A stretch of DNA of 35,167 nt from Rhodospirillaceae bacterium (lineage in GTDB: Bacteria; Pseudomonadota; Alphaproteobacteria; Rhodospirillales; UBA2165), in assembly GCA_018649245.1 (NCBI GenBank), contig JABIIH010000241.1:1-35167 (forward strand). Direction: 5' to 3'. The notes under the pieces were generated by a model. That model searched no databases and was not told where the DNA came from. It saw only the letters and a program-made list of their open reading frames with translations. A program made the translations under genes and the position numbers. Positions 5,990-15,656 of the stretch are shown piece by piece; positions within the stretch are counted from its first letter, which is position 1, and each line of letters starts with the position of its first letter.

Positions 5990-6958
5990 ATGGCTTTGCC
6001 AACTTTTACCATGCGCCAAATGCTTGAATCTGGCGTTCATTTTGGTCACGTAACCCGCCGCTGGAATCCGAAGATGGACGAATACATCTTTGGTACTCGC
6101 CAAGGCATTCATATCTTAGATTTACAACAAACAGTGCCGATGATGTATCGGGCGATGCAGGCTGTCGGCGAAATTGTCGCTGGTGGTGGTCGCGTATTAT
6201 GGGTTGGCACCAAGCGCCAAGCCAGTGAGCCGATATCAGAAGCAGCCAAACGCTGCGGCCAGTACTATGTTAATCATCGCTGGCTCGGTGGCATGATGAC
6301 CAATTGGAAGACCATCTCGAATTCGATTAAGCGGCTCAAAACGTTGGAAGAACAGCTTTCAGAAGACAACGAAGAAGTTGCCGGTCTGACTAAGAAGGAT
6401 CTGCTCAAACTTACCCGCGAACGCGATAAGCTGGACCGCTCCTTGGGCGGTATTAAAGATATGGGAGGTTTGCCGGATATCGTTTTTGTCATCGATACCA
6501 ACAAAGAAGGCATTGCAGTAGCCGAAGCCAATAAACTCGGAATTCCGGTTGTTGGTGTTATTGATAGTAACTCCGATCCCAAAGGTATCGATTACCCCAT
6601 CCCGGGCAACGATGATTCTATCCGTGCGATTAATTTCTACTGTGAAATGATTGCCGGTTCGGTGTTGTCTGGTATTCAGACCGAGATGGCTGCAAGTGGC
6701 AGCGATTTGGGTGAGCAAGAAGTCGCTCCCGATGAAGCACTGCCAACCGAAGCTCCCGCTGAGGAAACGCCTGCAGAAGAAGCACCAGCCGAAGCAGCAC
6801 CAGCCGAAGCAGCACCGGAAGCGGCTGCAACTGAGGAAGCACCAGCCGAAGCGGCACCAGAAGCGGCTGCAACTGAGGTAGCTCCAGCAGAAGAGGCTGC
6901 ACCTGAAGCTGCTGCTGAAACAGCGGCAGAAGAACCGGAGCAACCGGCAGCGTCTTAA
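5990..6958 (+). CDS. rpsB: 30S ribosomal protein S2 with a long Ala/Glu/Pro-rich C-terminal tail
   Basis: [48 protein letters not shown]... The start is moved from 5930 to ATG 5990 on homology. Confidence 0.97.
6803..6877 (+). repeat. in-frame coding repeat in the rpsB 3' end (33-nt unit at 6803-6835 and 6845-6877, 2 mismatches)
   Basis: gccgaagcagcaccggaagcggctgcaactgag versus gccgaagcggcaccagaagcggctgcaactgag. Confidence 0.85.
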
Positions 6959-8105: not shown

Positions 8106-8834
8106 ATGCCCACATCCCCGAAATATAAACGTGTTTTGTTGAAATTGTCCGGTGAAGGTTTAATGGGCGAGCTGGATTTCGGCTTTGAACCTGAGGCCAT
8201 GGAGCGCATTGCTAATGAGGTCAAGGCCGTGTGTGAAATGGGCGTGCAAGTCTGTCTGGTGATTGGTGGCGGGAATATATTTCGAGGACTTAAAGGCGTC
8301 GCTTCTGGCTTGGAACGTTCAAGCGCCGATCATATGGGCATGTTGGCGACGGTGATGAATGCGCTGGGTGTACAATCTGTATTGGAAAAAATGGGCGTAG
8401 CAACCCGTGTTCTATCAGCTATCCCAATGACCACGGTTTGCGAGCCCTACATTCGCCGCCGCGCCATGCGCCACATGGAAAAAGGCCGGGTTGTCATTTT
8501 TGCCGCCGGCACCGGTAATCCTTATTTTACGACCGATACTGCGGCAGCTTTAAGGGCCGCTGAGATGAATTGTGATGCCTTGCTCAAAGGCACGCAAGTG
8601 GATGGTGTTTACAGCGATGATCCTAAATTAGTTGTAGATGCCGAGCGTTACGATAAACTATCTTACCGGGATGTTTTAACCCGTGATCTGAAAGTTATGG
8701 ATGCGTCGGCAATTTCGCTATGCCGGGAAAACGATATTCCCATTATTGTTTTCTCTATTCATTCGACAGGCGCGTTTGCCGATGTTATGACGGGCAAAGG
8801 TAAGTCGACAATAATTGGTGAAGGGGAGGAATAA
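8106..8834 (+). CDS. pyrH: UMP kinase
   Basis: [16 protein letters not shown]...[10 protein letters not shown]...[20 protein letters not shown]. Confidence 0.97.
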
Positions 8835-9395
8835 GTGGATTTTCAAGCGCAAAAAAAGGATATCCAGCGCCGTATGGAAGGCGCTTTAGAAGTGCTGCAC
8901 CGCGAATTTGGTGGTTTGCGTACCGGGCGGGCCTCGACCAGTTTATTGGACCCCATCACCGTTGATGCCTATGGCCAGCAAATGCCGATGAACCAGGTTG
9001 GCACCGTCGGTGTTCCAGAGCCCCGCATGTTGACGGTGCAGGTTTGGGACAAAGGATTGGTTGCCAGTGTCGAAAAAGCTATTCGTGATTCTGACCTCGG
9101 CCTAAACCCTGCCTCGGATGGACAATTAGTGCGCATTCCAATTCCAGCGCTAAATGAGGAACGCCGGGCGGAAATAGCAAAAATAGCTGGCAAGTATGCC
9201 GAAGAAACGCGGGTTGCTGTCCGCAATGTTCGCCGTCACGCTATGGATGAACTTAAGAAAGCGGAGAAAGACGGAGATATTTCGAAAGACGAGCATCATG
9301 ACTATGATGTTGAAACTCAAGAACTTACGGATGATTACGTCAAGAAAATTGACGAAGCCTTTCATAATAAAGAACAGGAAATCATGCAGGTCTAA
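8835..9395 (+). CDS. frr: ribosome recycling factor
   Basis: GTG start abutting the pyr[40 protein letters not shown]...[14 protein letters not shown]. Confidence 0.96.
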
Positions 9396-12082: not shown

Positions 12083-13267
12083 ATGGAAATATTAAGCCTG
12101 TTTATGGCTAAGCTAAGTTTTATTTGGGAAATTGGTATTCCCTTCCTTGTTGCCTTGACCATATTGGTGTTCGTTCACGAACTTGGCCATTATGCGGTGG
12201 CGCGCTGGTGTAATGTAAAAATTGAGGTGTTTTCGATTGGCTTCGGCCCTGAATTAAAGGGCTGGGATGATCGTCACGGCACGCGCTGGAAATTAAGCGC
12301 AATTCCACTCGGTGGTTACGTCAAAATGTTTGGCGAAAGTGAAACCATCTTGGAAGGTGAGGGTGAGGATGAAAAAGAACGTCCAATGACCCCGGAAGAA
12401 GAAGCTGTTTCGTTTCATCACAAATCACTACCGCAACGTGCGGCCGTCGTCTTCGCGGGGCCGTTTATAAATTTTATTTTTGCTGTTTTGGCTTTTGCCG
12501 CTTTATTTATGACATTAGGTGTGCCCGAACCGGTTTCTGATAAACCATTAGCCGTTGTTGGTGCCGTATCACCAAATAGCGCCGCGGCTGCGGGCGGATT
12601 AAAAATGGGCGATCAGATTACCCGAATAGGTGATAGCAATGTTTCCTACTTTACTGATTTACAACGAATTATTGGCGCTAATCCTGAACAAAATCTGGTT
12701 TTGAAAATTGTCCGTGACGGTAAAAATCTAACCGTTGATATTAAGACCGGCTTTCGCAATGGAAAAAATGCCGCCGGCGAGACGATTAAAATTGGCTTGC
12801 TAGGCGTATCGGCGCATCCGGGTGAGGTGAAATATACGCGCCAAAATCCGGCAAAAGCGTTGTGGATGGGAGTTGAACGGACTTACATATTTACCGTTCG
12901 CATCTTGGAATACATCAGAGATATATTTGTCGGTAAACAATCGGCAGATGAACTGGGTGGAATACTCAGAATTGCGCAGATATCAGGGCAGGTCGCTGAA
13001 TTGGGTGTTGCAAGTTTTGTTTCCTTTTTGGCCATTCTTTCCGTAAATTTAGGATTAATTAACCTCTTCCCTATACCGCTGTTAGACGGTGGTCATTTAG
13101 CGTTTTATATAATCGAGGCAATACGCGGGCGTCCTTTGGGGCCGAAAGCTCAAGAATATGGGTTTCGGCTCGGGTTGACGTTCGTTATTGCCTTATTTTT
13201 GTTTGTAACGTGGAATGATCTTGTGCATTTAAAGTTTTTCGAGTTTATTACGGGGCTTCTGACATAA
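12083..13267 (+). CDS. rseP: RIP (site-2) metalloprotease
   Basis: FVHELGHYAVARW (HExxH) plus a single PDZ-like region and a C-terminal NLFPIPLLDGGHL motif. Confidence 0.93.
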   Translation: MEILSLFMAKLSFIWEIGIPFLVALTILVFVHELGHYAVARWCNVKIEVFSIGFGPELKGWDDRHGTRWKLSAIPLGGYVKMFGESETILEGEGEDEKERPMTPEEEAVSFHHKSLPQRAAVVFAGPFINFIFAVLAFAALFMTLGVPEPVSDKPLAVVGAVSPNSAAAAGGLKMGDQITRIGDSNVSYFTDLQRIIGANPEQNLVLKIVRDGKNLTVDIKTGFRNGKNAAGETIKIGLLGVSAHPGEVKYTRQNPAKALWMGVERTYIFTVRILEYIRDIFVGKQSADELGGILRIAQISGQVAELGVASFVSFLAILSVNLGLINLFPIPLLDGGHLAFYIIEAIRGRPLGPKAQEYGFRLGLTFVIALFLFVTWNDLVHLKFFEFITGLLT

Positions 13268-13273
13268 GTCTTT

Positions 13274-13354
13274 GAATCTTTTGGGAATCTTTTAGGAATC
13301 TTTTAGGAATTATCTAGGAATCATTTGGAATTTCTCCAAGAATCGTATAGAACT
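13274..13354 (+). repeat. phased 10-12 nt GAATC-like tandem motif array in the rseP-bamA intergenic region
   Basis: GAATC/GAATT/GAACT motifs start at 13274, 13285, 13296, 13307, 13318, 13328, 13340 and 13350. The spacings are 11, 11, 11, 11, 11, 10... wait-free count: 11, 11, 11, 11, 10, 12, 10. Confidence 0.8.
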
Positions 13355-13382
13355 CGATAATTCGATATTAGGGAGTTGTTAC

Positions 13383-15656
13383 TTGTACTGGATTAGAATG
13401 TTTGCGTTAGGCGCAGCCATGATTGTGGCTGTTGCATTGCCTTTCGGGGCCGAAGCGCAGAAATCCAACATCGTCGAAGAAATCGTCGTTCAAGGTACGC
13501 ACCGGATCGAGCAAAGTACTGTGCGATCATACCTCCTGTTACAGGAGGGAGACAGATTTGACGAGCGTCGGATCAATCAATCATTGAAGAGCCTTTTTGC
13601 AACCGGTCTATTTGCAGATGTCGCCATTACTCGCGAGGGTAAGGCTATGATTGTGAAGGTTGTTGAGAACCCGGTAATTAACCGGATCGCCTTTGAAGGC
13701 AACAAGCGTATTGAAGACGATATGTTGCGAAAGGAAGTTATCCTGCGCCCGCGGGTTGTTTTCACCCGCACTAAAGTTCAAGCCGATGTTAAACGGATAA
13801 TGGATGTTTATCGCGTCAATGGACGTTTTGCTGCTTCGATCGTGCCAAAAATTATTCAGCTGCCGCAAAACCGGGCTGACTTAGTATTTGAGATTGATGA
13901 AGGACCGTTAACGACTGTTGAACGGATTAGCTTTGTTGGTAATAAATTTGAAAGCGACTCTGATCTACGGGAAGTTATCCGGACTAAAGAATCCATTTGG
14001 TATCGTTTTCTATCATCTGATGACACTTATGATCCTGATCGTCTGACCTTGGATCGCGAATTATTGCGCCGCCATTACCTGGCTGAAGGTTTTGCCGATT
14101 TCAGAGTGGAATCAGCGGTTGCGGAATTAACACCAGACGGCAAAGCATTTTTTATTACTTTTAGTGTAAACGAAGGCCAGCGTTACAAATTTGGTGCAAT
14201 TGATGTTGCTGCTGGCTTGCGTGGCCTGGATGCTAAGAAGCTACGGGCGCTGGTTGAATTTGATACCGGCGATCAGTACGACAACACCAAAGTTGATGAG
14301 GCGATTGACAAAATTACCGATGCAATTGGTAATTTGGGTTATGCGTTCGTTGAAGTTAGGCCGCGTATCAATCGAAATCGCCGGGATAAAATTGTTAATT
14401 TAACATTTGATGTGAGAGAAGGTCCGCGCGTATTTGTCGAGCGGATCGATATTTCAGGTAATATTCGAACAGTTGATAAAGTAATTCGCCGGGAATTTCA
14501 GGTTGTTGAAGGTGATGCTTTTAATGCCGCTAAACTACGTCGTTCACGGCAACGCATTCGGGATTTGAACTTTTTTGATAAAGTTGAAATTGAACGTTTG
14601 CCCGGCAGTTCGCCTGATAAAACTATTGTTAAAGTGCAGGTCGAAGAAAAATCTACTGGTTCTTTGAGTTTCGGTGTGGGTTATTCGACTGACAATGGGC
14701 CACTTTTTGATCTTGGTGTAAGTGAGTCTAATCTGTTGGGCAAAGGTCAAAAGCTTGGTCTTAATCTTTCTATAGCCGCCGAGAAAAGCACAGTTAATAT
14801 CTCTTTTACCGAACCATATTTCTTAGACCGAGATGTTGCTGCTGGATTTGATCTCTATCATTCCAATCAGGATTTGCAGGATACCCGGTCCTATGATTTT
14901 AAGAAAACGGGTTTGGGCTTGCGGGCAGGATTTCCCATTGCACCGTTTATCCGTCAAAATTGGCGATATACGATTGAGCAATCAGAAATAGAAAATGTCG
15001 CCAGCACGGCCTCCAGTCTTATTAAATCGCAAGAAGGAAAAAGATTTTTATCGGAGGTCGGTCATACGCTAACTTACGATAAAAGGGATAGCCGGCTTTC
15101 CCCGACCGAAGGTTTTGTTGTTAGGGTAACAAATGATTTGGCAGGTTTTGGCGGCAATATTCGCTACCTTCGTAATCGTCTAAACGCTGGTCAGTATTAC
15201 GAAGTAATTGATGACTGGGTTCTTGCCGTAACCGGCGGTGTCGGCCATATTCTCGGGCTCGGCAAGGATGTTGAAATCGCAGATAGATTTTTCTTAGGCG
15301 GCGATTCTTTGCGCGGCTTCCAAACTGCCGGCGTTGGTCCGCGTGATAGGTTAACTAAAGATTCCTTGGGCGGTGAGTGGAAGTATAACGGTTCTGTTCA
15401 GGTGACTTTTCCGCTCGGTTTACCAACTGAATTTGGCGTTTCTGGCCGGCTATTTACTGATTTTGGTAGTATCGGCCAAGTTAGTCCATCCAATTCCAAT
15501 ATCCAGGATACCGGCAGTATCAGGGCAGCAGCCGGTGCCGGCTTAGGCTGGGTGTCGCCGTTTGGTCCGATTAATATGGACTTTGGTTTTCCAATTGTGA
15601 AAGAGAGCTTTGATCAAACGGAGCTATTTAGATTAAACTTCGGAACGAGGTTCTAA
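13383..15656 (+). CDS. bamA: outer membrane protein assembly factor BamA
   Basis: Signal peptide, POTRA repeats (e.g. VERISFVGNKFESDSDLREVI, VERIDISGNIRTVDKVIRREF) and a C-terminal barrel ending LFRLNFGTRF. TTG start at 13383 with GGAG 7 nt upstream; ATG 13398 is the alternative. Confidence 0.96.
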   Translation: MYWIRMFALGAAMIVAVALPFGAEAQKSNIVEEIVVQGTHRIEQSTVRSYLLLQEGDRFDERRINQSLKSLFATGLFADVAITREGKAMIVKVVENPVINRIAFEGNKRIEDDMLRKEVILRPRVVFTRTKVQADVKRIMDVYRVNGRFAASIVPKIIQLPQNRADLVFEIDEGPLTTVERISFVGNKFESDSDLREVIRTKESIWYRFLSSDDTYDPDRLTLDRELLRRHYLAEGFADFRVESAVAELTPDGKAFFITFSVNEGQRYKFGAIDVAAGLRGLDAKKLRALVEFDTGDQYDNTKVDEAIDKITDAIGNLGYAFVEVRPRINRNRRDKIVNLTFDVREGPRVFVERIDISGNIRTVDKVIRREFQVVEGDAFNAAKLRRSRQRIRDLNFFDKVEIERLPGSSPDKTIVKVQVEEKSTGSLSFGVGYSTDNGPLFDLGVSESNLLGKGQKLGLNLSIAAEKSTVNISFTEPYFLDRDVAAGFDLYHSNQDLQDTRSYDFKKTGLGLRAGFPIAPFIRQNWRYTIEQSEIENVASTASSLIKSQEGKRFLSEVGHTLTYDKRDSRLSPTEGFVVRVTNDLAGFGGNIRYLRNRLNAGQYYEVIDDWVLAVTGGVGHILGLGKDVEIADRFFLGGDSLRGFQTAGVGPRDRLTKDSLGGEWKYNGSVQVTFPLGLPTEFGVSGRLFTDFGSIGQVSPSNSNIQDTGSIRAAAGAGLGWVSPFGPINMDFGFPIVKESFDQTELFRLNFGTRF

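Follow-up and report, generated by a model that had tools for sequence, protein, structure and literature searches.

The window, by which we mean the whole 35,167-nt stretch of DNA analyzed, belongs to a MAG of an uncultured bacterium (G000), a genome that is 69% complete. Between the stop codon of rseP (13265–13267) and the start codon of bamA (TTG, 13383) sits an array of eight short motifs. The initial annotation had placed their starts at 13274, 13285, 13296, 13307, 13318, 13328, 13340 and 13350, with steps of 11, 11, 11, 11, 10, 12 and 10 nt, and all eight positions and all steps proved exact. In order, the motifs read GAATC (three times), GAATT, GAATC, GAATT, GAATC and GAACT. TRF delimits a repeat at 13274–13331 with a period of 11, 5.4 copies, 85% matches and a score of 74, compared to a best score of 63 over 60 dinucleotide shuffles of the window. 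A TTG start (13383–13385) is apparent for bamA here and likewise for bamA of several congeners. The features of the region are as follows.

12083..13267, plus strand: rseP (site-2 protease), the upstream neighbour; TIGR00054 E = 6e-85, PF02163; stop codon TAA.
13265..13278, plus strand: TAAGTCTTTGAATC, a 14-mer that includes GANTC site 1 and, by sequence match, recurs in the ccrM promoter at its -53 site (TAAGTCATTGATTC).
13274..13278, no strand: GANTC site 1 (GAATC), kept in G006, G007 and G002 as GAATC, GAATC and GATTC.
13285..13317, no strand: 33-bp expansion of three 11-bp units, without counterpart in sister genomes; its exact placement in the repeat is arbitrary.
13318..13322, no strand: GANTC orthologous to site 2 of the relatives, GAATC here and GATTC there; N differs and the fixed bases are the same.
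13340..13344, no strand: GANTC site 3 (GAATC), invariant in 4/4 genomes, 22 bp after site 2.
13346..13351, plus strand: TATAGA, a candidate -10 element directly after site 3, as read from the sequence.
13370..13375, plus strand: AGGGAG, the likely bamA ribosome-binding site, kept in G006 and G007.
13383..15656, plus strand: bamA (outer membrane protein assembly factor), TTG start; TIGR03303 E = 2.2e-232.

CcrM is the cell-cycle-tied DNA methyltransferase of alphaproteobacteria, and its target is GANTC. Judged by their sequence, the GAATC repeats are CcrM recognition sites, a point missed in the initial annotation, which had the positions right. The GANTC form is confined to five of the eight units (13274, 13285, 13296, 13318 and 13340), and these sites lie 39–109 bp upstream of the bamA start codon. 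None of 60 dinucleotide shuffles of the window contained five GANTC in 71 bp.

CcrM is present in the window's genome as a 362-aa protein (P0002) with N6_N4_Mtase and RAMA domains and a full-length match to Caulobacter CcrMI (6pbd, E = 1.8e-161); under the Caulobacter-specific NF050803 model it scores 636 bits, below the cut-off of 830. GcrA is encoded at G000:C5:8257-8589 (PF07750, E = 7.2e-16, both model ends matched) and is present in 22 of 25 related genomes by the same family model. In a 255-kb sample, GANTC was observed 390 times versus 978 expected from dinucleotides, and this 2.5-fold depletion (ratio 0.40) is the lowest ratio among 16 palindromes of the same form. Depletion of GANTC has been reported for CcrM-bearing alphaproteobacteria (PMC3973325). 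Density is 1.95 per kb outside ORFs versus 1.38 inside. We also took a census of GANTC clusters in 872 kb, or 31% of the assembly, and the rseP-bamA gap was the only cluster with five sites in 71 bp. The other clusters, with four sites each, fall in the ccrM leader, a REP-like dispersed palindromic repeat and ftsZ coding DNA; the GANTC-rich cluster at L133:7854 is the dispersed repeat, and those at L147 and L171 are coding DNA. The palindromic repeat itself (TTCCAGGTACCGGASTCGCAACAACTC...), found at L133:7854 and L126:377 (contigs C101 and C41), holds three to four GANTC sites, and one copy adjoins a RAYT-like (TnpA_REP) transposase ORF, which suggests a REP element with many CcrM sites. No preference for an 11-bp GANTC spacing emerged genome-wide, the 9 pairs in 2.85 Mb equalling the reversed-pattern control; a second tally of such pairs is biased, because some contigs were chosen for holding them.

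The genus set comprises nine genomes, and the rseP-bamA gap could be read in eight; in G004, the bamA match starts only within the gene, where the contig ends. Three relatives, G006, G007 and G002 (BamA 91%, 80% and 81% identical to that of the window), carry TAAGYYATT-GANTC-6 nt-GANTC-17 nt-GANTC in the gap, with site starts 11 and 22 bp apart. No GANTC occurs in the gap of the more distant congeners G001, G003, G005 and G008 (BamA 63–67% identical), and hence the link between GANTC and bamA is not general; in G005, one GANTC falls inside the signal-peptide region of bamA. A family-wide link was considered and rejected, as single sites in short gaps were not clearly beyond chance. The initial annotation had proposed comparing the spacer among relatives for conserved period and copy number. 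The spacing of the triplet is conserved in three relatives, and copy number differs, with 33 bp extra in the window. Relatives without repeats, which that annotation would have counted against a role for the array, are found among the more distant congeners and not among the three closest with a readable gap.

For the four genomes with the triplet, we aligned the gap after removing the extra 33 bp of the window. The fixed bases of GANTC are identical in 12 of 12 columns, compared to 9 of 29 other columns (Fisher p = 3.7e-5), and the central N differs at two of the three triplet sites. The GAATT at 13328 and the GAACT at 13350 lie outside the conserved element. Fourfold-degenerate sites of rseP and bamA are 33–38% identical among three lineages (54% for the window versus G006), and the former values indicate that unconstrained positions are near saturation. 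The three-site pattern occurs 0–2 times per genome in 60 genomes, yet it lies at bamA in all four of these (G000, G002, G006 and G007).

Sites 1 and 2 are separated by 44 bp in the window's genome and by 11 bp in the three relatives. Since the window holds exactly 33 bp more between these founding sites, the conserved sites came first and slippage later. On this alignment, the extra 33 bp (three 11-bp units, two with GAATC) is a slippage expansion private to the window's genome, bringing GANTC at 13285 and 13296 along with a decayed GAATT at 13307. Two proposals of the initial annotation thus gain support: repeated sites for a regulator, from the conservation of the CcrM sites, and slipped-strand expansion, from the 33 bp seen in this genome only.

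The candidate -10 element after site 3 is TATAAA in G006, TATAGA in G007 and not clear in G002, so that TATARA stands directly 3′ of site 3 in three of four genomes, without a good -35. A consensus promoter scan of the gap called no plus-strand sigma-70 promoter, TATAGA included, and a consensus terminator scan gave no support. The resemblance of the repeat units to an ECF -35 element, raised in the initial annotation, is unsupported, because site 1 does not retain the GGA.

The ccrM gene offers a comparison. We located ccrM in eight genus genomes, and every one of the eight leaders carries GANTC at -30 and -19 relative to the start codon; five of them carry a third at -53. The layout TAAGTCATTGATTC...TTGAC..GANTC-6-GANTC-A.. 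recurs at ccrM through the family (loci L184–L191 and L198–L219), with the GANTC pair, at its 11-bp step, lying between a good -35 (TTGAC) and a weak -10 (CANNNT at 17 bp, in our reading). From this layout, the leader is likely an autoregulatory CcrM/GcrA promoter. Like it, the bamA gap has the 14-mer TAAGYCWTTGAWTC, an 11-bp GANTC pair and a last GANTC just before a -10-like stretch. First-to-last GANTC distance is 33–34 bp in both promoters, and in the window's genome the last GANTC is followed by TAT within two bases in both. The ccrM promoter differs in its strong TTGAC -35 and in a middle site 23 bp downstream of the first; at bamA there is no clear -35, and the middle site is at 11 bp. 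We found 17 exact matches to TAAGYCWTTGAWTC in 25 genomes and none to the reversed control. Upstream of ccrM there are seven, and at bamA three; one is close to a tatA-like ORF, another precedes a hypothetical gene, and the remainder include chance coding matches. One caveat here is that the bamA match needs care, because the rseP stop codon fixes its first three bases.

Several further loci turned up in these searches. The ccrM leader of the window's genome (G000:C107 (L055) 8761-8908) has six GANTC upstream of the start codon. The copies of TAAGTCATTGATTC upstream of the tatA-like gene and the hypothetical gene are at L232 (G013:C161:5470) and L220 (G028:C86:33827), and the hypothetical-gene copy has a second GANTC 11 bp on. 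A third exact 14-mer in the window's own genome (G000:C270:4655) was set aside, as it sits where a reverse-strand transporter ORF ends and no promoter context was found. A GANTC-rich intergenic region by a ROK-type kinase and a 70-aa ORF (MYTIYYTDEDTPDE...) is present in G002, G004, G006 and G007 (L087, G002:C18:43395; L088, G004:C280:2851; L194–L197), with the 11/22-step triplet in two. The triplets of G002:C18 and G004:C280 were rejected as bamA counterparts: they lie upstream of the 70-aa ORF, and not all relatives preserve the spacing.

Most known CcrM/GcrA targets come from Caulobacter and its relatives. Caulobacter promoters under this control include mipZ, podJ and ctrA P1, with two juxtaposed sites at mipZ (PMC3667746). 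As at these promoters, multiple GANTC lie beside a gene in an alphaproteobacterium that encodes both CcrM and GcrA. In contrast to them, the target here is bamA, the five sites form a regular 11-bp tandem array, and YGAKTCK is absent; the present case is also one known from its sequence. The sites read TGAATCT, GGAATCT, GGAATCT, GGAATCA and AGAATCG, and none matches YGAKTCK, the extended activation motif of C. crescentus. B. subvibrioides likewise shows no YGAKTCK preference (PMC7987155). The array also resembles tandem-repeat expansions of promoter regulatory sites, in that whole 11-bp units have been gained and helical phase kept, and it differs from other promoter repeat expansions in that its unit is a DNA-methylation site.

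We think it rather probable that the array is a CcrM-site cluster in the bamA promoter or leader, an ancestral triplet under selection that slippage enlarged to five sites, and that it serves CcrM/GcrA control. By likeness to the published promoters, bamA here is probably a CcrM/GcrA target and, on the same analogy, probably under cell-cycle control in this genome. The best explanation is a bamA promoter under CcrM/GcrA control and confined to one clade, for which we infer methylation, GcrA binding and the start site. In such a promoter, CcrM would act late in the cell cycle to methylate the GANTC sites of the bamA leader. GcrA, which is bound to the sigma factor and reads methylated GANTC, would then help RNA polymerase open a weak bamA promoter beside the sites. 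Passage of the replication fork would leave the sites hemimethylated, and bamA output would shift with replication of the gene. Published work indicates that GcrA recruitment depends on GANTC methylation (PMC3667746), that GcrA so recruited acts with the housekeeping sigma factor and polymerase (PMC3667746, PMC7403470), and that cell-cycle timing goes with GANTC position relative to -35 and -10 (PMC4287350). The extra sites may strengthen binding, may keep the DNA hemimethylated for longer or may be neutral, and most bamA transcription may come from operon promoters further upstream.

The array could instead be a functionless, microsatellite-like expansion of an 11-bp unit whose GANTC content is incidental, a reading we judge fairly unlikely. 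It would fit the identity of copies 2 and 3, the decayed GAATT units and the private nature of the 33 bp. However, the three founding sites are older than the expansion and persist in three lineages whose silent sites are near saturation; moreover, constraint falls on exactly the GANTC bases, in a genome that otherwise avoids this sequence. Neutral slippage therefore covers the extra copies only and not the founding triplet. Somewhat more doubtful still is that another regulator (e.g. CtrA, MucR or an unknown factor) reads TAAGYCWTTGAWTC and its flanks, with GANTC methylation modulating this recognition or merely overlapping it. The 14-mer is common to the ccrM promoters of many related genomes and also precedes the tatA-like and hypothetical genes, some flanking bases are conserved (AT.. 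before site 1, G before site 2), and in other alphaproteobacteria MucR is able to shield GANTC (PMC5172544). The TAAGYCWTT flank, though, is missing at sites 2 and 3, and conservation across all three sites is confined to the GANTC bases.

Two other proposals of the initial annotation fared poorly. Bending of DNA at the bamA promoter by phased T-tracts was suggested by TTTT at 13279, 13290 and 13301, one helical turn apart. We compared the region with shuffled sequence in a wedge model and saw no excess bending: 28% of shuffles were equally compact for 13268–13360, and 68% for 13268–13330. In addition, the tracts are lost in G007 (ACAAAG) even though GANTC stays. These data make curvature very improbable. 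An RNA-level element, be it GGA repeats for a CsrA-like protein, decoy ribosome sites or a structured leader, seems to us the least credible of these readings. GGA is found in several units, but CsrA is encoded in none of the nine genus genomes, there is no Rfam match, and GGA at site 1 is not kept in relatives.

As far as sequence comparison tells, the array is a clade-specific, expanded CcrM-site cluster, and it most likely belongs to the promoter of bamA, an essential envelope gene; its target and its regular five-site arrangement are unusual. Among the papers searched, none ties CcrM or GANTC to bamA. If CcrM/GcrA control holds, an uncultured marine lineage of Rhodospirillaceae would have an essential outer-membrane assembly gene under the epigenetic clock. 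Rewiring of the CcrM/GcrA regulon is reported to be fast (PMC7987155), and here it would have been caught in the act, with sites gained in one clade and then multiplied by slippage in one genome. A more speculative idea, to which we give little credence, is that helically phased tandem GANTC arrays constitute a distinct promoter architecture of this lineage in which site number is a slippage-tuned dial on the strength or timing of bamA expression after replication; were it true, outer-membrane assembly would be tied to the CcrM/GcrA cell-cycle clock.

Elsewhere in the window, at 6776–6915, there is another tandem repeat (GAAGCAGCACCAGCC), with 15-bp and 42-bp units. Since both unit lengths are multiples of three, this repeat is probably coding.
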